From IMG/VR virus record IMGVR_UViG_3300020731_000071, positions 1 to 27,201 of that record: a DNA stretch of 27,201 bases. One strand, written 5' to 3'. The notes beneath the pieces are model-generated. The model did no database searches. It saw nothing but the letters and a program-made list of their open reading frames with translations, and was not told the origin of the DNA. Every line of letters begins with the position of its first letter. Positions within the stretch are counted from its first letter, which is position 1. A program made the position numbers and the translations under genes. The stretch comes from a virus. This document shows, in pieces, positions 1 through 21,928 of this stretch.

Positions 1-204
1 GTGGGCCCGGTCGGGCCGGTAGCGCCTGCGGTTCCCGTAGGGCCGGTCGGGCCGGTAGCGCCTGCGGTTCCCGTAGGCCCGGTAGGGCCGTTAGTTCCTG
101 CGGTTCCCGTAGGCCCGGTAGGGCCGTTAGTTCCTGCGGTTCCCGTAGGCCCGGTAGGGCCGTTAGTTCCTGCGGTTCCCGTAGGCCCGGTTGGGCCAGT
201 AGGG
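1..204. repeat. 36-bp tandem repeats coding collagen block 2
   Basis: About five units of 36 bp lie here, three of them identical. On the minus strand each encodes 12 residues of the form [12 protein letters not shown]. The array runs to the window edge, so the copy number is a minimum. Confidence 0.9.
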
Positions 205-2468
205 CCTGATCCGGGGGCCACCCAAGACGTATTACCGGCTCCGTCCGTCTTCAACACATAGCCGTTGGTGCCAGCGTTGACAGGAAGCGTCAGCGTGTAA
301 GCCGCCGTCGCGCTGTTGCTGGACGCCAGTGTGGTGGAGTACGCCCCGCCAGCGGTGTTATAGAGCTGGATCGTCCCTTGCGACGAGCCCTGAATGCCGA
401 GCACAAGGTTCGATCCAACTACGTTGGTAGCCGGAACACTCAGATAGACCGGGACAAGGATCATCGACCCGTTGGTAGACGAGTTGGTGACGACGCCGAT
501 TTGAACGCAATAGTTCGGTGTGTTTGGGACTGTAGACGTCAGCCCGCCTGCGGTCGTGGGCGAAAGGAAAAGATCAGTGCCCGCCGTATACGCCGAAGTG
601 TCGATGCCGGTAATAAGGCCAGAGAGCGTCACATAGCCGTTGGTGTTGTTGGCGATAGCGGCGTTGGTGATGCCGATAGCTACGATGGTCGAGAACGAGT
701 TGGCTTGGGCAAGCGCAACCGTTGGGTACTGGCCTACATAGTTTCCGTTGATGTAGACAACTTTACCAGCAGCGATTGTCGAGCCAGTAGCATTGTGTAC
801 CCGGATCAGCACCGAGCGGTTCATGTATTCGGTCGCGCCGGTCGCATTGACCACCGTGAACGCATCGTTTCCTTGGCTGAAATATGTCAGCCCGGTTGCA
901 GCCGTGGGCGTGGACGCGTTCGGTGTAAACTGAGCCGTGTTGTTGAACGTCGGGTTGTTTATCGTTGGCGAGCCCTGAAGGACAACGGTGGTGCCAGTTC
1001 CGGTGACCCCATAGCTTGTACCCCAGCTTGTGCCGGTGGAGTTGGCAATTCCTGCGCCCGGATATACGGTAGGCCCAGTCGGCCCCGTAGCGCCCGTCGG
1101 CCCCGTTGCCCCAACCGTGCCTGTCGGGCCAGTCGGACCAGTTGAGCCCGCAACCCCTGTCGGCCCGGTGGGCCCAGCGACCCCGGTAGCGCCCGTTGGC
1201 CCGGTAGGCCCTACGACGGTGGAATCCGCGCCTGTGGGGCCGGTTGGGCCTGTATTACCCTGCGCGCCCGTTGGGCCAGTAGCCCCGGTATTACCCGTTG
1301 GGCCGGTAGGGCCAGTGTTGCCCTGAAGGCCCGTTGGGCCCGTTGGGCCAGTAGCCCCGGTATTACCCGTTGGGCCGGTAGGGCCAGTGTTGCCCTGAAG
1401 GCCCGTTGGGCCGGTAGGGCCAGTAGCCCCGGTATTACCCGTTGGGCCGGTAGGGCCGGCGGCCCCGGTCGCGCCCGTTGGGCCGGTGGGGCCCTGTACG
1501 CTAGACGCGGCCCCGGTCGGGCCCGTGGCGCCAGTGGGCCCCGTGGGGCCGACACTGCCGGTCGGGCCGGAAGTACCGGTTGGGCCGTTAGCCCCTGCGG
1601 CGCCGGTAGGCCCGGCGTTGCCGGTGAGCCCGGTAGGCCCAGTGGGCCCTACCGCTGTAGAAGCGGCTCCAGTGGGCCCTGTGGGGCCAGTGCCGCCGGT
1701 CGGGCCGGTAGGGCCCGTGATGCTGATCGTCGTCCACGTAGGGGCTGCGCTGCCGCCAGCAGACACAAGCACTTGGCCCGCGTTGCCGGCGTTGGTCAGG
1801 GCCAAGCCCGAACTGGTCGAGTAAGCGAGGGCACCGGCAACCGGAGACAGCGAGTTGCCGGTGCCGCCGAAGGCCAAGGGGAGCACGCCAAGGACTTCGG
1901 AACTGAGAGCGAGATTCACGGGTGGGTGTACGTGATCTCCGCGAGCAGCAGCAGTCGAGGTACCCGCCGTTGCGGTTCCGAGAGCTTGAGGCGTTGCGTT
2001 GGAAAAATTGGTGTTAAGCGTCACATTCCCGGTCAGCGCGCCGCCGCCGGTCAAACCCGAACCTGCAATAACTTGCGTGCTTGTCGGCACGTAGCCCGTG
2101 ATGGACGTCGCTACGGTCGATGCGCTGGTGACGCGGCCCGTCGCATCGACCGTGATGACGGGGACGTGCAGCGCGTCGCCATACGTGCCTGCGGAAACAC
2201 CGGTGGCCGACAATTGCGTCGCGCCCACACCGCCGGGTGTGATCGAGATGGTGCGATCCGCGCTGAGATCGCCGCCGCCCGACAGCCCGGTCCCGGTGGC
2301 GATGATGCGCGTTGACGGCACCGCGCCAACGCTGGCGAGCTGCGAGAACTGGACCTTCCACGTCACGCCGCCGTACGTGTACGGCAGGTATCCGGTCGTG
2401 TCTGTCCCTTGGTACTCGGGAAGTTGCGAGAGCCGGGTCGGGACGAGGTTTGACGGAGGTGTGGTCAT
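1..2468 (-). CDS. Collagen-like phage tail fibre protein, C-terminus missing at the window edge
   Basis: The frame is open from an ATG at 2468 to the left edge, giving 822 residues without a stop. The N-terminal ~250 residues carry tail-fibre-type Gly/Thr/Ser-rich sequence such as [18 protein letters not shown]. Residues ~250-466 are Gly-X-Y collagen repeats (GPTGPTG), residues ~467-753 are a beta-rich non-collagen domain ending in [13 protein letters not shown], and a second collagen block starts at ~754 and continues off the window. Collagen-like Gly-X-Y rods are known in phage fibres, where they trimerise. By analogy this protein probably projects from the virion and binds the host surface. 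The ATG overlaps the stop of the upstream gene (TAATG), so translation is likely coupled. The receptor-binding tip is not visible. Being a fibre is well supported; its exact place on the virion is inference. Confidence 0.85.
1070..1716. repeat. Degenerate repeats coding collagen block 1, with 72-bp higher-order units
   Basis: Gly-X-Y triplets on the minus strand give about 215 residues. Within the block a 72-bp unit (24 residues, containing [20 protein letters not shown]) recurs, with GGTATTACCC on the plus strand at 1287, 1359 and 1431. This indicates recent internal duplication. Confidence 0.85.
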
Positions 2469-2770
2469 TACGGTTCCAGATAATCCTGCGAGTCTTCAGC
2501 CGTCATGTAGTAGTTGTCGTTTTCCGTAGGCAGGCCAAGCGGATTGGTCTCCAGCGGAACGTCTGGCCGAGCAAAGCGAAGCGCGATCACCTCGGGCTGC
2601 CGCGCCGGCAAACGGTACGGATCGTACTCGTCGCGGTCAAGCAAGCACACCTTAAGGCCCGGAAAGTTGGGGTCATCGTACAGATCGTCGATGCTCATCT
2701 TCCGGCTGCACCGACCGCACAGGCCGATGCCCAGCGTGGAACGGCCCCGAGTGTCGAGATAAACGGCCAT
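2468..2770 (-). CDS. Small phage protein with CxxC motif, function unknown
   Basis: This 100-residue protein has Cys18 and Cys21 (CGRC) and Cys42 within GLKVC. That layout resembles a group of small phage proteins that start with a degraded zinc ribbon (CxxC, then G-L-[RK]-V-C) and are encoded near tail or connector genes. Only three of the usual four ligands are visible, so zinc binding is uncertain. The ATG overlaps the stop of the upstream ParB-like gene by one base (TAATG), and the stop overlaps the fibre start in the same way. It is therefore embedded in a coupled connector-ParB-fibre operon. The position suggests a virion or assembly role, but that is inference. Confidence 0.7.
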
Positions 2771-3114: not shown

Positions 3115-4100
3115 CAGCGGGTATACATCGAAATGTTCGGCGAGATCATCATCGGCGAGTTGTCGCGCTCTTCAGCCTGCGCAATGGACAGCGCCTGCGC
3201 GGCCTTGGCGTCGAGCATCGGGATCATCTGCGGATCGACTTCAACGATCTCCAGCGCCAGCTTAGCGGCCAGACACGCCACAATGGCTTCGTACCAGCGC
3301 TGCGGGATCTCGAGGTTCTGTGTCATGGAACCGACGTCCATGATGTACCGCTGCACCCACAGCACCAGCTGCATCACGGTCGCGCTGATGTCTGGCACCG
3401 GCCACATATGCATAATGGGGCTCGGGATCTGGCGGTCGAACCAGTATTGCAGCGGACGATTCGACTGGAAATACTTGTTCGGCAGGTTGGTGTAATCGTC
3501 GCGGTTCATGCGCGCCAGCGGGATTTCCGTGGGTGTGTTGCCGTAGTAGATCTGGCTGAAGCCCAACGTGCCGCTGAGCGCACGAATGCGGAAATACTGC
3601 GTGGCGACGCTGCTGGTCAGATCGTACCACGTCCACTCTCCTGCGCCGGCAGAAGGGGTTTCGGTCTGTATCGTTTCCCAGATGAAGAAGTCGTACGACC
3701 GCTCGATAGCGATTGGCACCGCCGCCTGAGACCACAGAACCCCCACCGTCGTGACGAACGTCGGCAGGCCGAAATTGGTGCTGTGGATCGTCGACGTGTC
3801 GGTGTCCGAGCCGCTAACTTGCAGCAGGTACCGCAAGTTGCCGTTGAGGATGTCGTTCACGCTGGTGTCGAGCGAGATGTCGCCCACGCCCTGATACAGC
3901 GGGATGATCTGCTTTTCGATGGTCCACAGCGGCACGCCCTGATTGGTCAGGTCCGACAGCAGCAGGTACAACTGGTCGTTGGCGATTTCGATGTATTCGC
4001 CGCTGATCTGGGCAGCAGGGATCTTGCAACGCCGGATGGCGTTGTCGATGATGCGACCAGTCGTGAAATTGGTCTGTGAAACGGTTCCGCTGTATGCCAT
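3114..4100 (-). CDS. Head-to-tail connector / head-completion protein (P22 gp4-like position)
   Basis: This 328-residue protein begins MAYSGTVSQTNFTTGRIID and has an early helical segment of the form AIRRCKIPAAQISGEYIEIA followed by LYLLLSDLTNQGVPLW. That pattern is typical of a conserved phage structural family encoded downstream of the capsid genes and usually annotated as neck, adaptor or packaged-DNA-stabilisation protein. The C-terminal half has Trp- and Pro-rich segments (HMWPVP, QLVLWVQRY) and ends with a helix. A TTG codon lies one codon upstream, but ATG at 4100 is the better start. The upstream gap of 100 bp holds nothing recognisable. The role in the virion is inferred from family pattern and gene order; a tail tubular protein is the main alternative. 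Confidence 0.65.
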   Translation of the reverse strand: MAYSGTVSQTNFTTGRIIDNAIRRCKIPAAQISGEYIEIANDQLYLLLSDLTNQGVPLWTIEKQIIPLYQGVGDISLDTSVNDILNGNLRYLLQVSGSDTDTSTIHSTNFGLPTFVTTVGVLWSQAAVPIAIERSYDFFIWETIQTETPSAGAGEWTWYDLTSSVATQYFRIRALSGTLGFSQIYYGNTPTEIPLARMNRDDYTNLPNKYFQSNRPLQYWFDRQIPSPIMHMWPVPDISATVMQLVLWVQRYIMDVGSMTQNLEIPQRWYEAIVACLAAKLALEIVEVDPQMIPMLDAKAAQALSIAQAEERDNSPMMISPNISMYTR

Positions 4101-4200
4101 CAACCATGCTCGCTGTTTATGGCCCGCAGCCCGCCACCAGAAGCAGGCATCTCTGGCTGATCTGTATTACCGCAAATAACGGCCCGCAACAAGCCAAGCG

Positions 4201-4995
4201 TTAGCAGCCCCGTTTGGCTGCTCCGCCTTTTTTCAAACCCATAGGCGTTGCTGTAGGGGCCGGCGCGCCGATCATCGGGGTGGCGTTGAAGCCGGGCTTG
4301 CCCATCGGCTGCTTCATTTTGCGGGCAAGGCTGTCCGCCACCACTTTGCGGACGACGGCCTTCGCCACTGCGGGGTTGCGCATCACCGAAGCCTCAGGGG
4401 CCACGGTAACGGCGCCGGGGGTTTGGGGCGCCATAATCGGGCCGCCATCGGCCTTGCGCATAACCTTGCCGCCCTTCTTCAGGCCAACAAGGCTGGGCCG
4501 CGATTCCACGTCGGGCTTGAGAGCCAAAGCCTTGCGGATCTGGCCGAGGTCATTGAGACGCTCAGCCCGGACCGCCAGATCCGGGTTCGAGCGAACCATT
4601 TGGTGCGCTTCGTGGATCGAGTCGGACGGGGCGTTCTTGAGATAGCCGCCGGTGGCTTTCTTGATCGGGGCGCCAACCGCCTCGAACTTCCCACCTTCCA
4701 TCGGGTAGCCGGTAGCTTTGCCGACCTTCGCGTCGCGCCCGACCGGCTTGATTTCCCCGCCGTTGGCTTTGTGAACCGGCTTCGCGGCCTTGCGGCCTTC
4801 GCTCAGCGCGATGGCGACAGCCTGCTTCTGGTTCGACACTTTGGGGCCCTTGGCCGAGCCGCTGTGCAGATCGCCTTTGCCCCATTCGTGCATGACTGTG
4901 GCAACTTTGGCTTTAGACACCTTGCCGCCCTTGGCGTAGCACGAGCCGCCTTCCTGCATACGCATGGTCTTGGTGGTGTTCTTGAAACCGTCCAT
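4201..4995 (-). CDS. Basic Gly-Gly-motif phage protein with DUF6496-like domain
   Basis: The 264-residue, Lys/Gly/Ala-rich protein has a DUF6496-like segment at about residues 29-70 (VMHEWGKGDLHSGS, then QAVAIALSEG). The remainder is low-complexity and basic, with many short motifs of the form [KN]xGG (YAKGGK, KANGGE, KATGGY, KADGGP, LKKGGA). DUF6496 proteins are common in phages and have no firmly known function. Such basic proteins may bind DNA or be ejected with the genome, but that is inference. The start MDGFKNTTKT matches the start of the protein encoded at 5175-5471. An AAGGA lies seven bases before the ATG. The gene follows the 57-residue gene by a few bases. Confidence 0.75.
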   Translation of the reverse strand: MDGFKNTTKTMRMQEGGSCYAKGGKVSKAKVATVMHEWGKGDLHSGSAKGPKVSNQKQAVAIALSEGRKAAKPVHKANGGEIKPVGRDAKVGKATGYPMEGGKFEAVGAPIKKATGGYLKNAPSDSIHEAHQMVRSNPDLAVRAERLNDLGQIRKALALKPDVESRPSLVGLKKGGKVMRKADGGPIMAPQTPGAVTVAPEASVMRNPAVAKAVVRKVVADSLARKMKQPMGKPGFNATPMIGAPAPTATPMGLKKGGAAKRGC

Positions 4996-7397: not shown

Positions 7398-8312
7398 TTA
7401 CACGCCAGCCGTGCCGTACACGCCGCGCGGGTCGGTCCAGCCGAACGCGTAACGCTCGGTGGCCTTGTAGCGCATGGAGTCGGTTTCGAAATCGCCTTCC
7501 ATGCTCTTTTCCAGACCACGACGCATGGCCAGCTTCAGACCGTCGGGAGCATCGGTTTCGACCCACCAAGCGGTGGTCGAGGTGATGCGCGACAGGTTGG
7601 CCTGACCACCGTCCAGCATCCCCATCGACTTGACGGGGTTGATGTCGTTGTTCGCCGTGCCGGTACGCAGGACCGACTTGAGCAGCACTTCAGCCTGAAA
7701 GACGTTGCTCGGGCCGGCAACGATCTTCTTCGGCGTCAAGCGGATGCGCTTGCCGTTGTTGTCCACCGCGTTACGGATCTGGATCAGCATCTGTTCCAGC
7801 GGGGTCTGCGACAGGCTGGCCGCAGTCGTGAGCTGGTTGCTGAACGAGCCGTTAGCAATCGGGTGAGCAGTGTTGATGAGCGAAACGCCATCGCCGCCAA
7901 CGTACGCGGAGTTGAACGCGCGGTTGAGGATGTTGGCACCAAGGGTTTCCTTGGTTTCGATCAGCGACTGCGCCAGATGGCGAGCGTAGGTCTGGCCGAT
8001 GCGGATGTGGTCGCCGTCTTCCACCAGAACTTTCGTCAGCGCGAAGGCAAGGCCATACACGCGATAGACGTAGCGCTGGATGAAGAGCACGCCACCCGAC
8101 TGGTAGGTGACAGGCATACCGTCGGGAAGTTCCGGGGCCGCGCCGAAACCGAACAGTACCGGTTCTTCGTGGTAGTTGCGAGGAATACCGTTGAAGGTCT
8201 TGAAGACCTGCGTGTATTCGTCGGTCCGCTGATCGTAGATGCCATTGAATTCCTCATTGAGGATAGGCTCGACGATAGAGCGGAAGTCGGTTGAACGCAT
8301 TGGGGTAGCCAT
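7398..8312 (-). CDS. Major capsid protein
   Basis: The 304-residue protein forms the phage head shell. It begins MATPMRSTDFRSIVEPILNE and has an extended-loop-like segment (VTYQSGGVLFIQRYVYRVYGLAFALT), a spine-helix-like region (YARHLAQSLIETKETLGANIL) and a C-terminal block MRYKATERYAFGWTDPRGVYG. This last block is characteristic of a widespread phage capsid family, probably HK97-fold and related to the Mu gpT type. Gene order (terminase, portal, scaffold, then this gene) supports the call. A strong GGGAGG precedes the ATG, and a double hairpin follows the stop, as expected for a heavily expressed gene. A prolysin or protease domain is absent, and the separate scaffold gene takes that place. 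Confidence 0.88.
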   Translation of the reverse strand: MATPMRSTDFRSIVEPILNEEFNGIYDQRTDEYTQVFKTFNGIPRNYHEEPVLFGFGAAPELPDGMPVTYQSGGVLFIQRYVYRVYGLAFALTKVLVEDGDHIRIGQTYARHLAQSLIETKETLGANILNRAFNSAYVGGDGVSLINTAHPIANGSFSNQLTTAASLSQTPLEQMLIQIRNAVDNNGKRIRLTPKKIVAGPSNVFQAEVLLKSVLRTGTANNDINPVKSMGMLDGGQANLSRITSTTAWWVETDAPDGLKLAMRRGLEKSMEGDFETDSMRYKATERYAFGWTDPRGVYGTAGV

Positions 8313-11600: not shown

Positions 11601-14201
11601 TTACTCGGGAAGCTTCGTAGGCTCAGGCTTGTAAGCCTCCATCGCCTGAGCGTGCGCGTGGTCCATCAGCGCGATCTGTACGGACGTGCTGTTGTCTTGT
11701 GTATTCATAGCCGCTCGAGCGTCCATGTCCATACGTTCGCGCTCGTCGACCGCGTGCTCCTTGGCGGCCTCGATTGCGGCGTTGCGCAGCGAGTTCTGGG
11801 CAGCCTGATCCAGCTTGGTCTGGGTCTGTTGGGCCTGCGTGGCCGCCTTGGTCTGGTTGAACTGCGCCTGAGTTTGGGCCTGCTCGGCTGCCTGCGCGAG
11901 TTTCTGCTGCTCGATCTGGTTGCGCTGCTGGTTGTTGCGGTCCTGCATCTGAACCTGCTGCTGCGCGACTTGCACCGCAGGGTCCATCTGCGGGGGCGGC
12001 ATGAACTGCTGCAACGTCTGCTGCGCCTGCTTGATGGCTGCCGGCAGCTGGGTGAAGACCGCCTGAGCCTCCTCGCTGACCGTCTGCGACGCCTCGGCCA
12101 GCATCCGGTCGAACGCCTGACGATCCTTCGGATCTTTCATGTCGCGCATGTCTTCCGCGATGTTGCCGCCCGACACCTCGTTGCCCAGCTGGAATACGCC
12201 ACTGGCGTACCAGAACGCGATGTGCTCCTTGATGTGGTTGAGCATGATCGGGATGTATGCCGGCGCGATCAGCGGGCTCGAGCCCAGCGCCGGGTTGAGC
12301 ATGTAGCTCAGGTGCGCCTTGAGGTGGGCGATGTGGTCCTGCTCCGGGAATGCCAAGATCGTGTGGCCCATAGTGGCCGTCACGTTCTCGTTGACCGCGT
12401 TCTGCTCCTTGGGCTCGGTGGTCGGCGCCAGCAACTCCAGCGGGTTCGGGATTTTCAGCGTCTCGAGGATGCGCTGCTCGACTTTGCGCAGGTCGTACAG
12501 CTGCGGGACGATCTGCGACCGCTGGGCCACCGCCTGCACCTGAGCGTAGCGCTGGGCTTCGCTGAAGATGTTCGGGTCGCTGACGGGCACCACATCGAGC
12601 GGCCCCTCGAAATCCCCACGAGTCGCGAGTTCCTGACCGACTTCATGCTCGATGTCGTCATCGTCGAGGTACATGCCGTTGAGCCGGTGCAGCACGCGCA
12701 GCAGCCGCGCCATCGCGTCGTGCAGCCGGGCGTGGATGGCCGAGAAGACCACCATCCCTTGCTCCATGCGCGCCAGCGTCGTGCCGACGGGCGTGTCGGC
12801 CTGCATCTCGGACGCCACGTCTTCCATCGACGTGCGGACGACGCCCTTGGCCGCGTCGGTGATGAAGCCCAGCAGTTCCATCAGGATCTGCGACGGCGGG
12901 TTGAACGGCAACGGCATCGCGATCTTGCGGATGTCGTCGATGTTGAGGCCGCCCTCGATCTCCTCGACCTGCGTCGGCTGGATGTTCAGCGACTGGCCGC
13001 CGCGCGACCCGCCCTTCAGCTTCAGCATGGTCGGAGCGTTCTGGATGTGCGCGCTGTCCATCAGGGCGCGCAGGGCGCCTGTGGCAGCCGCAGACAGGCC
13101 ACCCATGATGTGCGGCAGCCCAATCGGGTACGCGCCGCGCCACGGGATGAACGGGAACTCGACGAACCACTGAAGTTCCTCGCGGGTCTCGTCCAGTTCG
13201 TCCCAGTTGCGGTAGATCGACAGCACGGTGCGCGATGTCTTGTCGACCGAGATGATGTAGGGCGACGCCTCGTCGTCATCGTCCAGCGTGGTCGTGACGT
13301 AGATCTCGAACACGGTGCGCAGACCGTCCTCGTTGTAACTGCTCTCCGAGCGGCCTTCGATCTTGTCGTTGGCCTTGTCGACGTCCGACCGCTCAGGCTC
13401 TGAGCCCGGCGGGATGACGTCGATGTCGCGGTACATGCCGCTCTTGACCTTGCGGTCGTAGTCGAGCGTGGTCAGGTACTGGACGTGCGTCTTGCGCTGC
13501 GCGCTGTAGAAGTTGGTCGCAGCGAACGGCAGGTACATATCGTCGATGGCGACGAACAGGAACTGGGGCCGGTTGCGCGAGTTGTTCCACGTCGTCTTGA
13601 GGTACTGCGCGCCGCCCAGCGGCACCTGCGTCAGCAGCTGCTCCAGTTCCGCGCGGAACTCGGTCGACTGGACGGTAAGCTGCCAGTTCATCAGCGCGGT
13701 CTTGCGCTTGGCCTTCTGCACCTTCTCGACGGTCACGTCGCCGACGATCAGATCCTTCACCGGGCCCGTCGGCGGCATCAGTTCCTTCATGGCCCGCGAT
13801 GCGAAGTCGATGCACGCCTCGGTCAGCATGGGATGCACGACGCGCGAGGCGCCTTGGAACTGCGCACCGCCCGGTGCGTCGTCGCCCAGCCCGGTGCGGC
13901 GGATGCCGTCTTCGTACTGCTCGTCGCGCTTCTTGCGCGCTTCCCGGTCCTTCTCGATGAGGTCGAGGTACTCGGCGGCAATGTCGCCCAACTCGCCTTC
14001 GCTCATGTCCTCGGCGAGGTTGCGGTAGAAGTCGGGGGTGCGCTCGTCCTCGTCATCCTCGCTCACGCGGATGGTAGCGCTGCCGTCCTCGTTCTCGGTG
14101 ACGTCGCCATCGTCGTCATCGTCCATGAACGCGATTTCAGCCTGCGTGTCGCCGCTCAGATCGCCGTAGTCGGGAAGCGCGTCGTTTTCGTCGTCCATCA
14201 T
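11601..14201 (-). CDS. Portal protein
   Basis: The 866-residue protein forms the dodecameric DNA channel at the head vertex. After a very acidic N-terminus (residues 1-60) come portal-type blocks: RTPDFYRNLAEDM, GASRVVHPMLTEACIDFASRAMKEL, a wing region, IPWRGAYPIGLPHIMGGLSAAATGALRAL, and a clip/stem region PLPFNPPSQILMELLGFITDAAKG. Residues ~750-830 form a Gln/Ala-rich coiled coil that may be the barrel extension seen in P22-type portals. Its length (866) is large, as in podoviruses. It starts seven bases after the large terminase stop. Two tandem ATGs are present (14201 and 14198); the second has better spacing from AAGGA. Confidence 0.88.
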   Translation of the reverse strand: MMDDENDALPDYGDLSGDTQAEIAFMDDDDDGDVTENEDGSATIRVSEDDEDERTPDFYRNLAEDMSEGELGDIAAEYLDLIEKDREARKKRDEQYEDGIRRTGLGDDAPGGAQFQGASRVVHPMLTEACIDFASRAMKELMPPTGPVKDLIVGDVTVEKVQKAKRKTALMNWQLTVQSTEFRAELEQLLTQVPLGGAQYLKTTWNNSRNRPQFLFVAIDDMYLPFAATNFYSAQRKTHVQYLTTLDYDRKVKSGMYRDIDVIPPGSEPERSDVDKANDKIEGRSESSYNEDGLRTVFEIYVTTTLDDDDEASPYIISVDKTSRTVLSIYRNWDELDETREELQWFVEFPFIPWRGAYPIGLPHIMGGLSAAATGALRALMDSAHIQNAPTMLKLKGGSRGGQSLNIQPTQVEEIEGGLNIDDIRKIAMPLPFNPPSQILMELLGFITDAAKGVVRTSMEDVASEMQADTPVGTTLARMEQGMVVFSAIHARLHDAMARLLRVLHRLNGMYLDDDDIEHEVGQELATRGDFEGPLDVVPVSDPNIFSEAQRYAQVQAVAQRSQIVPQLYDLRKVEQRILETLKIPNPLELLAPTTEPKEQNAVNENVTATMGHTILAFPEQDHIAHLKAHLSYMLNPALGSSPLIAPAYIPIMLNHIKEHIAFWYASGVFQLGNEVSGGNIAEDMRDMKDPKDRQAFDRMLAEASQTVSEEAQAVFTQLPAAIKQAQQTLQQFMPPPQMDPAVQVAQQQVQMQDRNNQQRNQIEQQKLAQAAEQAQTQAQFNQTKAATQAQQTQTKLDQAAQNSLRNAAIEAAKEHAVDERERMDMDARAAMNTQDNSTSVQIALMDHAHAQAMEAYKPEPTKLPE

Positions 14202-14208
14202 CTATCCT

Positions 14209-15708
14209 TCAGGCGGCGTAAGGGTTCTGGTACTCACGGGGGGCGGACCGGCGCTCCTCGTCGTCGGCCCTGCGGTTTCGCTCTTCGGCGGCTTTTACCG
14301 TACTTACCAGCCCTTTGTCGAGGCATAGACGCACGCCCTGCGACACAGCGTCGACGTAGTCGTCGTGCTTGATCGAGCCGGCGCCCGTAAATGCGCACAA
14401 TTGAGCCAGCATGGGGTCGATCCACGTCTTGGGCCGGCCCTTGAACTTGTCGCTCTCAGGGAGCCACACGCGCCGCTGGGCGAACACAGGCGACACGATG
14501 TGCAGCCGGCTCAGCTTGTCCGCACGACCGGGGTTGTAGGCGTACGCCTCGATCCCCTCGCGCGCCAGCATCTGCCGCAGCGAGATGCCCGACCCCTTGT
14601 CCTCGATCAGCAGGATGTCTGGCGCCCGGCCACTGGTCAGCGGCTTGGCCGACCCGAACATGGGCCGGATGACCGCCGTGTCCTCGTCGTCGCCGTACCG
14701 GTTCTGCAACTCGCGCTTCACCCGCTTCATCAACTCGGGCAGCCCCAGCTGCTCAGCCCAGCAGTCGAGCATAATCAGGTTGGCCACGCCGTCCTGCTGG
14801 AACACGCCCATCACGACGCACGCCGAGAAGTCGGCGCCATTCTTCTTGTCAAACGTCGCCTCGGTGAACGCCGTGTCCATCGACATGATGATCCAGTCCA
14901 ACTGCGGCAGCGGCTTCTTCGCCGGCCACAGCCTGAACCACGACCGCTTGATGATGCCGCTCTCTTCCGGGTCGATCAACTCGCCGTACAACTCCTGCCG
15001 CCCGAGGGTCGTGCCCTCGTACTGCTCCAGCTGCGCAAAAAAGCTATCCGGCAGGTTCGCCTTGTTCTCGAACGTCGAGCCGCGCACGATGAACCGGCCC
15101 TTCTTCGGTTCGATGAGTTTGCGGACCAACTCTTTTGGCTTCGGCGTCGTCGTCCACAGTATTTGCGGATTATTACCAAGTCGCAGACCCATCATGGCCA
15201 TGTCCCACGTCTCCTCGTCGTAGGCCCACGAAGACAACTCATCGCCCCAGATCCGCGCGTGCTGCGGCCCGCGCAGTCGCTCGGGCTTTTCCGCCGTAAA
15301 TCCGCGAATTGTGGTTGTCTTGCCGCTGCGCGTCTTCATCTCGATAATCATGTCCGACGAGTTGTACCGTACGATCAACTCCTTCGGAATGACATTCAGC
15401 AGCCCCGCCGGCCCTTCGAAGCACGTAAACTTCACGTCCCCGTAGGTCGGCGCGATCACAGCCGAGGGGAACGCATCGGGATCTTCGAACGACGCTGCTC
15501 CAAGCCACTCAGCGCCCACGCGCGTTTTACCGAACCCGCGACCGGCCATAAAACCGGTTTCAGTCCACAGTGTCTCGGGGGGTAGCTGATTTGGACGAGC
15601 TGTCATCGCCCATTTGGTCTGCCAAAGCAGGTAAGCCACGTCCTCTGCCGACCACCCCCCGAGGGTGCTTTCGTCCAGAGATTCCAAAGCACTCAGATCG
15701 AGGGCCAT
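14209..15708 (-). CDS. terL: Terminase large subunit
   Basis: This is the packaging motor ATPase and nuclease. In the 499-residue form starting MALDL, the Walker A motif is AGRGFGKT (55-62), the Walker B is IWGDE (Asp156, Glu157) and the coupling motif is WTTTPKP (about 185-191). The RNase-H-like nuclease residues are Asp278 (MSMDTAF), Asp370 (LIEDKGSG) and Asp449/450/453 (HDDYVDA). The ATG at 15708 has GGAG nine bases upstream. An in-frame ATG at 15723 is possible but poorly spaced, and the frame stays open further upstream across a promoter, which argues against a longer start. It lies at the head of the structural operon, about 50 bases from a sigma70-like promoter. Confidence 0.93.
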   Translation of the reverse strand: MALDLSALESLDESTLGGWSAEDVAYLLWQTKWAMTARPNQLPPETLWTETGFMAGRGFGKTRVGAEWLGAASFEDPDAFPSAVIAPTYGDVKFTCFEGPAGLLNVIPKELIVRYNSSDMIIEMKTRSGKTTTIRGFTAEKPERLRGPQHARIWGDELSSWAYDEETWDMAMMGLRLGNNPQILWTTTPKPKELVRKLIEPKKGRFIVRGSTFENKANLPDSFFAQLEQYEGTTLGRQELYGELIDPEESGIIKRSWFRLWPAKKPLPQLDWIIMSMDTAFTEATFDKKNGADFSACVVMGVFQQDGVANLIMLDCWAEQLGLPELMKRVKRELQNRYGDDEDTAVIRPMFGSAKPLTSGRAPDILLIEDKGSGISLRQMLAREGIEAYAYNPGRADKLSRLHIVSPVFAQRRVWLPESDKFKGRPKTWIDPMLAQLCAFTGAGSIKHDDYVDAVSQGVRLCLDKGLVSTVKAAEERNRRADDEERRSAPREYQNPYAA

Positions 15709-15759
15709 TAACGTGTGCTCCATGCTCACCGCTCGCACGAGGAGCAGCGCCGCAAAAAA

Positions 15760-15788: not shown

Positions 15789-15860
15789 ACCCGAGGGGGT
15801 GTTGCGCTTTTTTGCAAATAGGAGGGGGTGGGTAGGGGCCGGGGGGCACGTGTTGCTTTG

Positions 15861-16019: not shown

Positions 16020-16215
16020 CCATCGCGTCGCGACGCGTCGCGCAACGCGCCGGGCACGGCATGGGAGGCAAGGCGCAATGCCCTAGGCGCGCACCGCGCA
16101 TGGCGCGGTGCAACGCGCCACGCAACGCCACGCGCGTTGCACAATGCCGCGTCGCGTCGCGGTGCGCGCCGGGCGGGGCGTGGCGTTAGGGCGCGTCGCG
16201 CGTCGCGCCGGGCAA
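16020..16215. repeat. GC-rich palindrome and octamer cluster downstream of the small terminase
   Basis: The octamer GCGTCGCG occurs six times (16025, 16035, 16149, 16154, 16193, 16200). A perfect 14-bp palindrome lies at 16029-16042, a 9-bp-arm inverted repeat with a three-base loop at 16091-16111, and a GCAACGCG/CGCGTTGC pair around 16110-16138. The cluster extends into the last codons of the small terminase gene. Confidence 0.7.
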
Positions 16216-16725
16216 TGCCTTAGGTGGCGCATCGATCAACGCGCCGGGCGCGCTATCCCGCTTGGCCGCGCGCACCAGCGCCACAAGCTCTGTAACGGCG
16301 GCGCTGTTGTCGATGGCAATCGCCCCGCCGTCTTTGCCGGTCAGCTCCACGCGGTTGCTATCGGCGTACTTGGGCGACAGCTTGGCGAGCAGGCGCATAC
16401 GCGTATCGGTGCGCAGCTTAAGACTTGCAACGTGGGCGCTATCGTAGCGGGCGTTCCCCGCCGTATCGACAATCCGGGCAATGGGCGTATCGGCGATGGC
16501 GATGCATTCCTCTGCCATTGCGTCGTGGCCTAGCTCTATCGCACGCGCGTGCGCTTGCGCCAGTGCGGGGGTTGCCTCGAGCCAATCGGACCAAGTGCGC
16601 GGCTCAATCCCGTTTTGACGGCAAGCGGCGCTTATGGTTTCGCCCCGTGCAATCCGTTCGATGATATTCGCCTCTATGGCAGGCGTGCGCTTAGAGCGTG
16701 GGTTTCGTGCTGGTGGGGTATTCAT
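16186..16725 (-). CDS. terS: Terminase small subunit
   Basis: The 179-residue protein recognises phage DNA for packaging. The N-terminus has a helix-turn-helix-type segment (IIERIARGETISAACRQNGIEPRTWSDWLE), followed by a helical oligomerisation region and the conserved block LKLRTDTRMRLLAKLSPKYAD, then VELTGKDGG. These are features of the Sf6-type small terminase family. Most family members are 140-180 residues. The C-terminal tail is Ala/Pro-rich and its codons run into the GC-rich repeats downstream. The ATG lies at the foot of a 12-bp perfect hairpin whose loop carries AAAGGA, so translation may be controlled by RNA folding. The large terminase lies 480 bases away rather than adjacent. Confidence 0.85.
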   Translation of the reverse strand: MNTPPARNPRSKRTPAIEANIIERIARGETISAACRQNGIEPRTWSDWLEATPALAQAHARAIELGHDAMAEECIAIADTPIARIVDTAGNARYDSAHVASLKLRTDTRMRLLAKLSPKYADSNRVELTGKDGGAIAIDNSAAVTELVALVRAAKRDSAPGALIDAPPKALPGATRDAP

Positions 16726-17704: not shown

Positions 17705-17746
17705 AAAAACGTCTGTATGGGGCTTAAATCGCAATTTACGGCATAT
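17705..17746 (+). repeat. Conserved 34-42 bp non-coding element, copy 1
   Basis: It matches 21373-21414 at 36 of 42 positions with an exact 14-base core GGCTTAAATCGCAA. It lies 144 bases before the first plus-strand gene. It could be a phage-specific promoter, a protein-binding site, or a recombination site. Confidence 0.7.
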
Positions 17747-17889
17747 AGGGAAAACCCGGACATCGGCCACGCCGGGCACGGCGTACGTATGGTTGCTTAT
17801 GTTTGCAGTTTTTTGCAGATAGAGCTTGATCGCATGGCGCGGGGCGTTATCCCGGCATGACATCAACACACAAACAAGGACAGACAGAC

Positions 17890-18006
17890 ATGAACGCCGT
17901 GCTTAATTTCATCGATAAAATCGTTTTTGACCGGCCCGACTTGGGCGTTTGCATGATTTTTGGCGGGTTGTGGGTTGTCAGTGCAGCTCTTTCATTCGTG
18001 AATTGA
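17890..18006 (+). CDS. Small membrane peptide (38 aa)
   Basis: An AAGGA nine bases before the ATG opens a 38-residue frame. Residues 1-17 are polar (MNAVLNFIDKIVFDRPD) and residues ~18-37 are a single hydrophobic helix (LGVCMIFGGLWVVSAALSFV). It is therefore probably an inner-membrane peptide with its N-terminus on one side and almost no tail. Function is unknown. It is the first gene of the operon that contains the Cys-rich protein and the peptidase. Confidence 0.6.
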   Translation: MNAVLNFIDKIVFDRPDLGVCMIFGGLWVVSAALSFVN

Positions 18007-18021
18007 TAGGGGGGAAGTACA

Positions 18022-18135
18022 TTGCGTTACGTTATCGGAATCGCTCTAATCGTCGCGTATGTCGCGTTGTGCCAGTGTTCAATCGCTGACCAGTGCAAGG
18101 GTGCCAGCGTTCATTGCCAAGAGGAATCGCTCTAA
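18022..18135 (+). CDS. Small secreted or membrane peptide (37 aa), TTG start
   Basis: A TTG start follows GGGGGGAAG. The peptide has a hydrophobic N-terminal segment (about residues 3-16, YVIGIALIVAYVAL) and a Cys-rich, polar C-terminus (Cys17, 19, 26 and 33). It resembles a signal sequence with a short exported tail, but the lipobox is not canonical (Leu just before Cys17). The stop overlaps the ATG of the 520-residue gene by one base (TAATG), so it may serve partly for translational coupling. Confidence 0.5.
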   Translation: MRYVIGIALIVAYVALCQCSIADQCKGASVHCQEESL

Positions 18136-19697
18136 TGCCGTACTATGTCACATTCCGCCGCACCGCCGCGCATGATCCTGTCATCCTTGCGGCATATGGC
18201 AGGCATGACACCTATGCGAATGCCGCCACCATGCGCGACGAGATGCAACGCGCGTTCCCCGATTGCAGTTATTACGTGCGGTTTTCCACCCTAGAATATC
18301 CTGAAGGCGCGGCTTGCAACGCGATGTTAGTATTCGGGCCAAGCCCGCTAGGGGCCGAAAGCGTACCAGTCGCACCAGCGCGCCCGGATCACCCCCTTGA
18401 TGCGCCTATCAATGGGGCGTTTATGGCGCTTCCGGTTGATTGGCCGCGCCGGGAACGCCGACGCTTTGCGACGGGCGACTATACCCCCGTTCCTTGGCAA
18501 TTCGAACCGTGGGCGGATTCCCACCCCCTCTTATTCGCCCATATGAGCCTGAAAAGCCCCGGCATGGTTTCATTCACTGAAACCCCGGCCAAGGGCGAGG
18601 CAGACGTGCAAGCTAAGGGCATGACACCGGGCCGGTTCCTTAACAAGTATTATGCCGATTACCTTACCGCGCAAGAGATGGAACGGTGGGCTACCGAGTG
18701 CGCCAAGCTGGCGGGCTTGCTAACGCTGCAAGTGACCAGTGACGCCGACGAGATTGAGCGGGTTTATGTCAAGGGGCCACGCTCGTGCATGTCTCATGCC
18801 GCCTCGTGCTTCGCGGGCTACTGTCACCCGGCGCGCGTGTACGCTGGGCCAGACTTGGCCGTTGCGTTCCTTGGCGACTTGGAAGCGGGCGAAATTACCG
18901 CGCGTTGCGTGGTCTGGCCCGAAAAGATGCGCTACGGGCGCATTTATGCGGGTGATGTCCGGCGCATGGAAACGGCGCTACAGGGCGCGGGGTATTCCGA
19001 AGGATCACTAGAGGGGGCGCGCGTTCAATACCTTGAAAGCAACGGCACGATAGTCATGCCGTACGTTGACAACATCGACGCGGCCGAAATTGACGGCGGA
19101 TATGTGGTTCTGGGAAGCGGCGATCTTTGCACGCAACAGACTAACGGCACTACCGGCGAGCGTTACTCGTGCGACTGTTGCGGGGACCATACCCAAGAAG
19201 ATGATTTAATGTGGATCGAATCACAGGATGAAACGTGGTGCGCGCAATGTATTAGCGAGCGTTTGTCGCGTTGCGATTATGACGATTGCTATTATCGCGA
19301 TGGCGATATGGTGGAGGTTTACGGTTATCGCCGATACAACACGGTTTACCGCGACAACCTCGATTCTATCGACGCGGTCTATGTCGAATCGCGCGGCGAA
19401 TATTGGAAGTCAGACGAAGTGTTCTGTTGCGAGGATTGCAGCGAATATTTCCATGTTGATGACCTAGTGGCTGTCGATGACGGTGACGATTGCAGCAATT
19501 GCGCCTCTTGCGCCGAAACACGGCAAGCGGCCCTTGATGAACGCCTGAAAGCGGAAGCGGAAGCGGAAGCGGAAGCGGAAGCGGAAGCGGAAGCGGAAGC
19601 GGAAACGGAAACGGCGCGCGCGCCCGATTTTACCTTGCGCGTTGCTGCTACCTTTACCGTTGCGCCCCCGCATACCCCCTTCGTGATTTACGCTTAA
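18135..19697 (+). CDS. Cys-rich phage protein with multiple zinc-binding-type motifs and an (AE)9 tract
   Basis: The 520-residue protein starts at the ATG coupled to the upstream stop; an upstream in-frame ATG lies inside the preceding gene and lacks a binding site. Residues ~1-200 have no known pattern. Residues ~215-315 hold a Cys/His cluster (CMSHAASCFAGYCH) and a conserved-looking block (EITARCVVWPEK, MPYVDNID) resembling a hypothetical phage family. Residues 346-459 contain at least three CxxC-type pairs (CDCC, CAQC, CCEDC, CSNCASC), suggesting several treble-clef or zinc-ribbon units. Residues 473-490 are (AE)9. The protein is probably cytoplasmic and may bind nucleic acid or proteins. 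No function is known. The peptidase gene follows by 13 bases. Confidence 0.7.
   Translation: MPYYVTFRRTAAHDPVILAAYGRHDTYANAATMRDEMQRAFPDCSYYVRFSTLEYPEGAACNAMLVFGPSPLGAESVPVAPARPDHPLDAPINGAFMALPVDWPRRERRRFATGDYTPVPWQFEPWADSHPLLFAHMSLKSPGMVSFTETPAKGEADVQAKGMTPGRFLNKYYADYLTAQEMERWATECAKLAGLLTLQVTSDADEIERVYVKGPRSCMSHAASCFAGYCHPARVYAGPDLAVAFLGDLEAGEITARCVVWPEKMRYGRIYAGDVRRMETALQGAGYSEGSLEGARVQYLESNGTIVMPYVDNIDAAEIDGGYVVLGSGDLCTQQTNGTTGERYSCDCCGDHTQEDDLMWIESQDETWCAQCISERLSRCDYDDCYYRDGDMVEVYGYRRYNTVYRDNLDSIDAVYVESRGEYWKSDEVFCCEDCSEYFHVDDLVAVDDGDDCSNCASCAETRQAALDERLKAEAEAEAEAEAEAEAEAETETARAPDFTLRVAATFTVAPPHTPFVIYA
19551..19610 (+). repeat. Hexanucleotide tandem repeat in the Cys-rich gene
   Basis: Nine perfect GCGGAA units (19551-19604) are followed by ACGGAA. 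They encode (Ala-Glu)9 then Thr-Glu. Because the unit is six bases, copy-number changes alter length without shifting the frame. Confidence 0.95.
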
Positions 19698-19710
19698 GGA
19701 TCACCCCGTC

Positions 19711-20739
19711 ATGACAAAAGCCCATACAAGCCCCGTGCAAGCCACCTACAGCGCACCAGCACGCTTTGCGGCCCCCGAACCCCTACTTGCCGATATTCTC
19801 TCTTGGGGGCGTCCCCATGACAGCGAGACGGAACATCGGTTCCTTAAGGAATATCTGGATAAGGTGCCCGGCATGGAATCCGACGGTTTCGGCAATCGCC
19901 ATGTGACCATAGGCGCAAGCCCGGTCCTGTATTCCTGCCACGTTGATACGGTGGGACGCTATGAAGGGCACCAGCCCCTAGCCTATGACGCTGTTACCGG
20001 CATGCTAGGGCTGGAAAGCGGCAAGCCGGGGCAATGCCTAGGGGCAGATGATGGCGCGGGCGTTTGGATCATGCTTTGCATGATCGCGGCCAATCGTCCC
20101 GGCCTATACGTGTTTCATCGGGGGGAGGAAGTCGGGTGCCTCGGATCGAAATGGATTGCCAAGAGTAACCCGGCCCTATTGCGCGACATAACGGCGGCGA
20201 TTGCTTTTGATCGCGCGGGCTTTTCGGACGTTATAACGCATCAAGCGTACGGCATGACGGCAAGCGATACGTTCGCGAATTCCTTGGCGGGTTGCCTAAA
20301 CGCAATAAATCCCCGGTTCACTTACAAGCCCGACGATACGGGCGTTTATACAGATACGAACGAATATGCCGATTTAGTGCCCGAATGTACGAATTTGTCT
20401 GTAGGCTACTTTGGCCAGCATGGGCCGCGCGAAACGCTAAACGTGCCCCATGTAACGGCGTTGCGCGATGCAATGCTAGTGCTGGATTGGCGCGAATTGA
20501 CCATAGACCGAAAGCCGGGGGATGCTGGCGATTACGGGTACTTTATGGGGCCATATGGTCAAACCATGGACGATTGGCGCGATGGATACGCGCGCAAGCC
20601 CCTAGGCGCGCCCGATGATAGGGAATTTGACACTATGCTAACGCTCGTGCGGGAAAACCCGGAAATAGCGGCGCACCTACTGCTAGAGGCGGGTTTCGAA
20701 TGTGACGATATTCTTGACGCGGCTTTTGACCTAAACTGA
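19711..20739 (+). CDS. Di-zinc metallopeptidase of M20/M28 type
   Basis: The 342-residue protein has all five metal-ligand motifs of the M20/M28/M42 exopeptidase fold in order: CHVDT (His77, catalytic Asp79), GADDGAG (bridging Asp113/114), RGEEVG (catalytic Glu139, ligand Glu140), FDRAG (Asp167) and GQHGPRE (His237). This supports an active co-catalytic enzyme that cleaves N- or C-terminal residues or acyl groups; the substrate cannot be read from sequence. There is no signal peptide, so it should act in the cytoplasm. The C-terminal ~80 residues are phage-specific. AAGGA lies eight bases before the ATG. It is the last gene of the operon and is followed by a strong terminator. Confidence 0.8.
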   Translation: MTKAHTSPVQATYSAPARFAAPEPLLADILSWGRPHDSETEHRFLKEYLDKVPGMESDGFGNRHVTIGASPVLYSCHVDTVGRYEGHQPLAYDAVTGMLGLESGKPGQCLGADDGAGVWIMLCMIAANRPGLYVFHRGEEVGCLGSKWIAKSNPALLRDITAAIAFDRAGFSDVITHQAYGMTASDTFANSLAGCLNAINPRFTYKPDDTGVYTDTNEYADLVPECTNLSVGYFGQHGPRETLNVPHVTALRDAMLVLDWRELTIDRKPGDAGDYGYFMGPYGQTMDDWRDGYARKPLGAPDDREFDTMLTLVRENPEIAAHLLLEAGFECDDILDAAFDLN

Positions 20740-20760
20740 CACCGCACAGACGGCGCGACT

Positions 20761-20788
20761 AGCGGGGCTTTAACCGGCCCCGCTTTTC
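20761..20788 (+). terminator. Strong Rho-independent terminator after the peptidase
   Basis: AGCGGGGC (20761-20768) is perfectly inverted at 20777-20784 (GCCCCGCT) with an eight-base loop, and the stem's last U is followed by further Us (CGCTTTTCG). It closes the 17890-20739 operon. Confidence 0.85.
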
Positions 20789-20926
20789 GCGTTTATCGCG
20801 CCCTAGCGGCAAGCCTAGGCCATTGCGCCTACGCTTTCCCCTATGACGCTTTGCCGTAGGATCGCACCATGAGGGGCTCCGCCATGCCTGCCCATAAACC
20901 GCCCTAGGGGGCCGCCATAGGCGCGC

Positions 20927-21260
20927 CTGTGCGCCCTGCGTCTGTGCGTCTGTGCGCCCTGCGTCTGTGCGCCCTGCGTCTGTGCGCCGTGCGTCTGTGC
21001 GTCTGTGCGCCCTGCGTCTGTGCGCCCTGCGTCTGTGCGCCGTGCGTCTGTGCGCCGTGCGTCTGTGCGCCCTGCGTCTGTGCGCCCTGCGTCTGTGCGC
21101 CGTGCGTCTGTGCGCCGTGCGTCTGTGCGCCTAGCGCCGTGCGTCTGTGCGTCTGTGCGTCTGTGCGTCTGTGCGTCTGTGCGTCTGTGCGTCTGTGCGC
21201 CGTGCGTCTGTGCGCCGTGCGTCTGTGCGCCGTGCGTCTGTGCGCCGTGCGTCTGTGCGT
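20927..21260. repeat. Nested 15-bp / 8-bp satellite array
   Basis: By hand the array parses fully into 16 copies of CTGTGCGCC[C/G]TGCGT (15 bp), nine copies of CTGTGCGT (8 bp) and one 22-bp variant, for exactly 334 bp. Six 8-bp units run together at about 21143-21190. The C and G versions of the 15-mer alternate in the order CC GG CC GG in the middle, a 60-bp higher-order repeat. There are no unique spacers. Confidence 0.95.
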
Positions 21261-21295
21261 CTGGTGCCCGACGCGATTGCAAAGCCGTTCATGCG

Positions 21296-21329
21296 ATATT
21301 TCGCAATTTCCATTTTAAGCCCCGTACAG
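21296..21329 (-). repeat. Conserved non-coding element, copy 3 (inverted)
   Basis: On the minus strand it reads CTGTACGGGGCTTAAA, matching copy 1 at 15 of 16 positions, then diverges but keeps TAT at the same distance. It faces away from copy 2, 43 bases to its right. Confidence 0.6.
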
Positions 21330-21372
21330 GCGCAAGAGGCGCGCGGGGCACTACAGATACCCCTAATGGTAG

Positions 21373-21414
21373 AAAAACGCTTGTATGAGGCTTAAATCGC
21401 AAATTTCGGCGTAT
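21373..21414 (+). repeat. Conserved non-coding element, copy 2
   Basis: It matches copy 1 (17705-17746) at 36 of 42 positions, in the same orientation. Together they bracket the operon 17890-20739. Confidence 0.7.
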
Positions 21415-21467
21415 TCATGGCCAAAGATTGCCAGCGACGCGCAACGCGCCACCCGGCGCGTATGATA

Positions 21468-21574
21468 GGCGCGCGGGTATCAACGCGACGCGCGCCCGGC
21501 GGTGCGGGCGTGGGCGCGGGCATGGGCGCGCGGGTTTCAACGCGACGCGCGCCCGGCGGTGCGGGCATGGGCGC
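21468..21574. repeat. 50-bp direct repeat, period 57
   Basis: 21468-21517 and 21525-21574 match at 48 of 50 positions. The unit includes CAACGCGACGCGCGCCCGGC. It resembles the GC-rich motifs between the terminase genes, sharing GCAACGCGCC nearby (21441). Confidence 0.85.
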
Positions 21575-21928
21575 ATACAGGCGCGGGTATCCTATCTGTG
21601 CCCGCGCGGCGGCGCACGGGCACGCACGCATGGGCGCACGGGCGCGCACGCATGGGCGCACGGGCGCGCGCGCGCACGGCCACGTACGGGCGCATACGCG
21701 CGGGCGCGCCCCCGCGCGCCAATATAAAAGGCCAATCTCGGAACCCGAAAAATCCTTTTTGGGAAAATCGGAACGGTTTTGAAAATTCCGTTAGGGGGCC
21801 TCCAACTTTTTATCCGGGGGGACGATTTTTTCGGTTGCAAGGCCCCGGCATAGTCACTATTGCTCATTAGGCAGGCAGAACCTGCACACCATTGTTGGTT
21901 TGGTATACGCAAGAGAAGGGCGAGTTTT

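Follow-up and report, generated by a model that had tools for sequence, protein, structure and literature searches.

Here we report the analysis of an early operon in a linear IMG/VR virus contig of 27.2 kb (record IMGVR_UViG_3300020731_000071), referred to over its full length as the window. The contig is probably a fragment of the genome of an alphaproteobacterial tailed phage, with sphingomonads as its presumed hosts; no match was found among the phage records searched with it at the DNA level. The terminase, portal and head genes are read leftward, as is the gene of a collagen-like GPTGPTGA protein that is probably a tail fibre (Table 1). The early genes are read rightward, and their operon faces away from the terminase block. 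All four ORFs that an earlier note on this DNA had assembled into this operon are present and co-oriented, and the hairpin that it had taken for the operon terminator can be recognized as well, with only a short run of T behind it.

Table 1. Features of the window discussed in the text
Feature	Position	Strand	Remarks
Collagen-like GPTGPTGA protein	3-2495	-	cut off by left contig end
Major head protein	7398-8312	leftward	
Portal	11601-14201	leftward	
Terminase large subunit (terL)	about 14209-15726	leftward	
Terminase small subunit	16186-16725	leftward	
E1, upstream repeat copy	17705-17746	+	non-coding
Putative membrane peptide, 38 aa	17890-18006	+	first early gene
Putative membrane peptide, 37 aa	18022-18135	+	TTG start; stop overlaps next start (TAATG)
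big, 520 aa	18135-19697	+	core residues 100-340 (18432-19154), zinc-binding tail
M28/PepT-like di-zinc peptidase, 342 aa	19711-20739	+	phrog_4191, PF04389
Terminator-like hairpin, end of early operon	20761-20784	+	z=-3.75; 4 T only after hairpin
Tandem array, 15-bp unit GTGCGCC[G/C]TGCGTCT	20906-21274	.	intergenic gap
E3, third repeat copy, inverted	21296-21332	-	41 bp from E2
E2, downstream repeat copy	21373-21414	+	non-coding; precedes next rightward operon, first clear gene 21929

The terminase of the window is 63% identical to that of Caulobacter phage KcrB and 89% identical to that of another IMG/VR contig, L004, the closest relative. The KcrB locus (L095) contains two terL-like genes with a SAM methyltransferase gene between them. 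In L004, the terL gene (3155-4500) is interrupted in frame at the Walker A lysine by an insertion with an end that reads ...LIPTHN followed by T; the insertion, absent from the window terminase, is by its look an intein.

The last gene of the operon encodes a protein that matches PF04389 with 33.1 bits (curated cut-off 21.3) and phrog_4191 with E=6e-72, and its seven metal and catalytic residues (H77, D79, D113, E139, E140, D167 and H237) are invariant in all 44 homologues, in agreement with the di-zinc peptidase proposed in the earlier note. By its sequence, the protein belongs to the M28/PepT-like di-zinc peptidases, with predicted activity in amide-bond hydrolysis. Its closest solved relatives are Peptidase T and tripeptidases. 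It has in common with Peptidase T and M28 enzymes (3gb0, 3rza; PF04389) the di-zinc fold and all metal and catalytic residues, the sequence match to PepT spanning about 90 residues; it differs from them in falling into a separate phage/plasmid clade, whose members nearly always lie behind the gene that precedes it in the window.

This preceding gene, here named big, encodes a protein whose description as Cys-rich in the earlier note holds. Its tail contains a zinc knuckle, C346-x2-C349-x19-C369-x2-C372, and the C-terminal part has further cysteines; among 67 homologues, C346 is present in all, and C349, C369 and C372 in 54-55. The same note had called the protein sensor-like, which is not obvious, since the conserved part of big is its transferase-like core. 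In that core, S217, C218, M219, Y236, R257, P309 and D312 are invariant in 67 of 67 homologues, a set that resembles an active site. No match to big was found in Pfam, NCBIfam or PADLOC, the PADLOC profiles matching none of five proteins, and sequence and profile searches gave no GNAT match for it; many of its homologues fall into phrog_6980, a family without assigned function. Used alone as queries against viral contigs, big recovered one distant relative and the peptidase no close one, so that profiles were needed for both.

The structural evidence on big comes from an AlphaFold (AF2) model with pLDDT 95 in the core. In the PDB, this core is matched overwhelmingly by GNAT acetyltransferases, FemX and aminoacyl-phosphatidylglycerol synthases, uniformly but weakly: the best matches reach a Foldseek E=0.012 and a Z=5.4 over 86 residues, the latter below the caution line of Z=8, and the GNAT likeness covers about 96 residues. 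At the strand 4/helix 3 loop, the consensus of big reads R-x-Y-G-D-x-x-R, in which the first half of R/Q-x-x-G-x-G/A is present and the final G/A absent. No other fold stood out in the Foldseek/VIA comparison, and a PcfJ-like protein was a structural neighbour at E=0.045 only. We take a GNAT-like fold of the big core as probable. Significant matches were also obtained with predicted structures of viral proteins, among them the same early-gene proteins from phages of Klebsiella, Pectobacterium, Vibrio, Pseudomonas, Shigella and Caulobacter.

The big and peptidase genes form a tightly linked, co-evolving unit across very different phages and conjugative elements. Where enough upstream sequence was available, big lies directly upstream of the peptidase gene in 99 of 107 peptidase-seeded loci (29 of 33 from bacterial genomes, 70 of 74 viral), and conversely the peptidase gene directly follows big in 68 of the 74 big-seeded viral loci. 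The distance matrices of the two proteins are correlated with r=0.86, compared with a permutation maximum of 0.09. The four-gene unit of the earlier note is therefore retained for these two genes, which travel together, but not for the tiny membrane peptides, and the co-occurrence search that it proposed for all four proteins divides them in the same way. We rejected the peptides as members of the module: neither has relatives in 128 related loci, and the hydrophobic small ORFs found upstream of the pair in 13 of 104 loci, the window included, are unrelated in sequence. A weak phrog_4736 match had raised the option that the pair is part of amidoligase/aminotransferase clusters, which profile searches did not support.

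The pair recurs in hundreds of unrelated phages and also in conjugative elements. It is found in several Autographiviridae genera, where it lies in the early region upstream of the primase/helicase genes, as well as in larger phages, and the same gene order was observed in Pasto, BDU-MI-1 (121 kb), Kpp-9 (Drulisvirus), Ep4, Nobby (Phimunavirus) and KF2 (Maculvirus). On plasmid pMC4 of Sphingopyxis indica the order is again the same, with a peptidase 56% identical to that of the window; according to the annotation, the pair there is read in the same direction as DUF2958, ParB, Toprim and DUF2493 genes and lies near HEPN and Abi-family genes, and the trb and mobF genes are about 25-40 kb away. 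Methylobacterium and Limnohabitans plasmids also carry the pair in this order. The pair is rare in cells, the peptidase occurring in two of 200 sampled genomes of the family, one of which was the seed. In the phylogenetic trees, the window peptidase joins copies from sphingomonad cells and elements (support 0.97), and window big joins that of L109, a phage-like region of Aquisediminimonas (support 0.99). In this region (L109 4548-12960, Aquisediminimonas sediminicola), the pair opens a block with zinc-finger primase-like, HNH-like and DnaB-like genes beside chromosomal genes; the block, which holds the closest big homologue, is likely a prophage.

Within the terminase clade of the window itself the pair is patchy. 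In L004 the divergent position is occupied by unrelated small genes behind the same control element, and neither big nor the peptidase was detected in 80 terminase relatives, of which 29 extend for 4.4 kb or more upstream of terL. These comparisons indicate that the pair was swapped into, or lost from, a conserved early slot, and it is best read as an exchangeable two-gene early module. The comparison of relatives for presence or absence of the interval, as proposed in the earlier note, thus agrees with it in the patchy distribution, but a precise empty site, with the repeats and without the interval, was not found in any relative.

The control element in question is the motif TTTGCAN(T)5-6GCAAATAG, which is found in the window at 17802-17822 (+), before the early operon, and at 15801-15821, before terL; none of 100 shuffled sequences contained two matches. 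L004 has it at the equivalent places (1946-1966 and 3186-3206, -), and it is probably the real operon control site. Tandem arrays, of which a second, G+C-rich one lies at 21465-21720, occupy the 1.2-kb non-coding gap between both rightward operons, a possible replication or packaging region.

The 42-bp repeats E1 and E2 lie exactly where the earlier note had placed them, outside of coding sequence and in the same orientation, with 36 of 42 positions identical (50 bits, E=5e-9); their score of 30 is far above chance, as 60 dinucleotide shuffles gave at most 15. We identified in addition an inverted third copy, E3, absent from that account, which is identical to E1 at 28 of 37 positions (score 19, maximum of 15 in 500 shuffles). 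E1 precedes the early operon, and both E2 and E3 are located in the 1.2-kb gap before the next rightward operon. No sigma-70-like promoters were found at the repeat copies, the site counts being equal to those in shuffles, and Rfam and tRNA searches gave no match. CtrA sites were considered and discarded: there is no exact TTAA-N7-TTAA, and two sites with one mismatch compare with 2.07 expected by chance. Four distant phages (L189, L194, L195 and L201) have the same lay-out, with the terminase leftward and the pair first rightward, and quite different short repeats on both sides of the pair; other pair-carrying phages have unrelated repeats, or none, at comparable positions. Given the quite different repeats in the gaps of these four phages, the repeats around the pair are best interpreted as control regions of units that are transcribed separately. 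The number of copies, their placement and their orientation, with three copies in two intergenic regions and one of them inverted, support the 42-bp repeats as a putative dispersed regulatory element rather than cassette ends.

Our overall best explanation, which we regard as somewhat probable, combines an exchangeable two-gene module, regulatory repeats and a two-enzyme action on a host or defence target; the reading as a module with regulatory repeats is, taken alone, likely. The early-region position and the conjugative entry-type neighbours suggest that the pair acts as the DNA enters a new cell. Judging from the gene position, the two proteins would be made early, and big would recognize a host or defence target via its zinc tail. 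The combination of a transferase-like protein bearing a zinc adaptor with a peptidase suggests successive steps of amide chemistry on a single target. Big may add or rearrange an acyl or aminoacyl group on that target, and the peptidase may hydrolyse an amide bond in the same pathway, switching off a host process or a defence; this enzymatic reading is possible though doubtful. A narrower and rather unlikely version is a portable 'tag-and-trim' system, in which a transferase with a zinc tail, representing a new GNAT-like clade, would mark a protein of the host or of a defence, and an M28-type peptidase dedicated to the task would complete the inactivation of that protein.

In the earlier note, the interval was viewed as an excisable cassette, with the 42-bp copies as recombination sites, so that the whole 3.7 kb with four genes would come and go. 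The direct copies at the two borders, which exceed chance expectation by far, and the patchy occurrence of the pair agree with such removal, which is nevertheless quite improbable. The repeats are not confined to the borders, since a third copy lies, inverted, 41 bp away from the second; the interval has no recombinase, and the tiny genes do not accompany the pair. An exact scan of 2.9 million viral contigs with the repeat core returned no match, and no convincing copy was seen in 80 terL relatives; L004 lacks the element and has other genes at this place; elsewhere the pair is accompanied by unrelated repeats or none, and among 95 pair loci a flank-to-flank repeat scoring 24 occurs only in the window and L162, the rest scoring at most 19.

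The remaining alternatives accept the pair and assign it another task. A nutritional role, in which a PepT-like tripeptidase supplies amino acids for virus synthesis while big serves as an accessory binding protein, would fit the solved relatives of the peptidase, but it is unlikely, as it explains neither why the peptidase is so strictly associated with a conserved zinc protein, nor the invariant S-C-M/Y/R/D core of big, nor the carriage on conjugative elements beside ParB, Toprim and DUF2493 genes. The presence of HEPN and Abi-family genes near the pMC4 pair, and of the GNAT toxin AtaT2 at low rank among the fold matches of big, would instead suit a toxin/antidote or element-borne defence system, with a GNAT-type toxin modifying aminoacyl-tRNA or peptides and a Zn amidohydrolase reversing it. 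We consider this improbable: PADLOC gave no match, two large enzymes in strictly virulent phages would be unusual for a toxin-antitoxin pair, and order and sizes of the pair are unlike those of known GNAT toxin pairs. Mom-type proteins have the GNAT fold, and big could be a GNAT of the Mom kind, attaching an amino-acid-derived group to DNA, for which the peptidase supplies or trims the donor. The GNAT-like core with its zinc tail, the early phage position and the conjugative-element carriage would be compatible with DNA or nucleotide modification; however, neither sequence nor specific structural matches to Mom were found and the window pair is far from DNA-synthesis genes, making this option highly improbable.

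As for an action of the two enzymes on a host or defence target, the co-inheritance of the pair, its patchiness and its location in early or establishment regions of phages and conjugative elements make the undescribed takeover or anti-defence system of the earlier note a fair inference for two genes, not for four. The Rac protein of phiKMV-like phages is a GNAT that triggers cleavage of the host RNA polymerase alpha subunit, and the acetyltransferase anti-CRISPR AcrVA5 (spelled AvrVA5 in that paper) is a precedent (PMC7552054). Rac is comparable to the role proposed for big, as a GNAT-type phage protein that brings about the proteolysis of a host protein, a likeness in the way of working only; Rac is a solo predicted GNAT and its protease is presumed to be that of the host, whereas big is a much larger protein with a zinc tail and has a peptidase of its own as partner. 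The principle of the 'tag-and-trim' scheme would be that of N-terminal tagging, or of a Rac supplied with a protease of its own. GNATs also occur in the polyvalent proteins of phages and conjugative elements (PMC5512222), which are similar in deploying GNAT-type and peptidase activities at entry, in the same kinds of element; theirs are multidomain proteins with RimI-like GNATs and zincin, assemblin, DD or LonC peptidases, and M28/M20 peptidases are unmentioned (PMC5512222).

The 'putative peptidase' and the preceding hypothetical ORF of PhiM1-like phages, Drulisvirus and Maculvirus (phrog_4191, phrog_6980) represent the same families in the same order, in the early region before the primase. 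The peptidase was published earlier as a conserved early-region ORF (PMC6115819). In those phages the two genes were described one by one, big as hypothetical; as a pair they are undescribed, and a literature search, with most subscription journals and preprints outside its reach, returned no paper on it. Unlike theirs, the window pair belongs to a phage outside the Autographiviridae and has its closest counterparts on sphingomonad conjugative elements. An early-region peptidase without an assigned role is carried by hundreds of lytic phages that have been well studied, such as those of Klebsiella, Pectobacterium and Vibrio; its strict pairing with a transferase-like partner makes two 'hypothetical' genes testable as a single system. 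The same pair beside ParB/Toprim genes on a conjugative plasmid points to entry as the time of action, and the two genes are a good candidate for a widely distributed means of host takeover or anti-defence.

Several elements contain multiple copies of the two genes. Methylobacterium plasmid pVL1_2 (L092) has two peptidase and three big places, with a peptidase enlarged to 554 aa. The uncultured megaphages LR756504.1 (L294, 636 kb) and LR756501.1 (L295, 735 kb) encode eight and five peptidase paralogues, respectively, together with three and six matches to the big core; at 434-442 kb of LR756501, two of each alternate.
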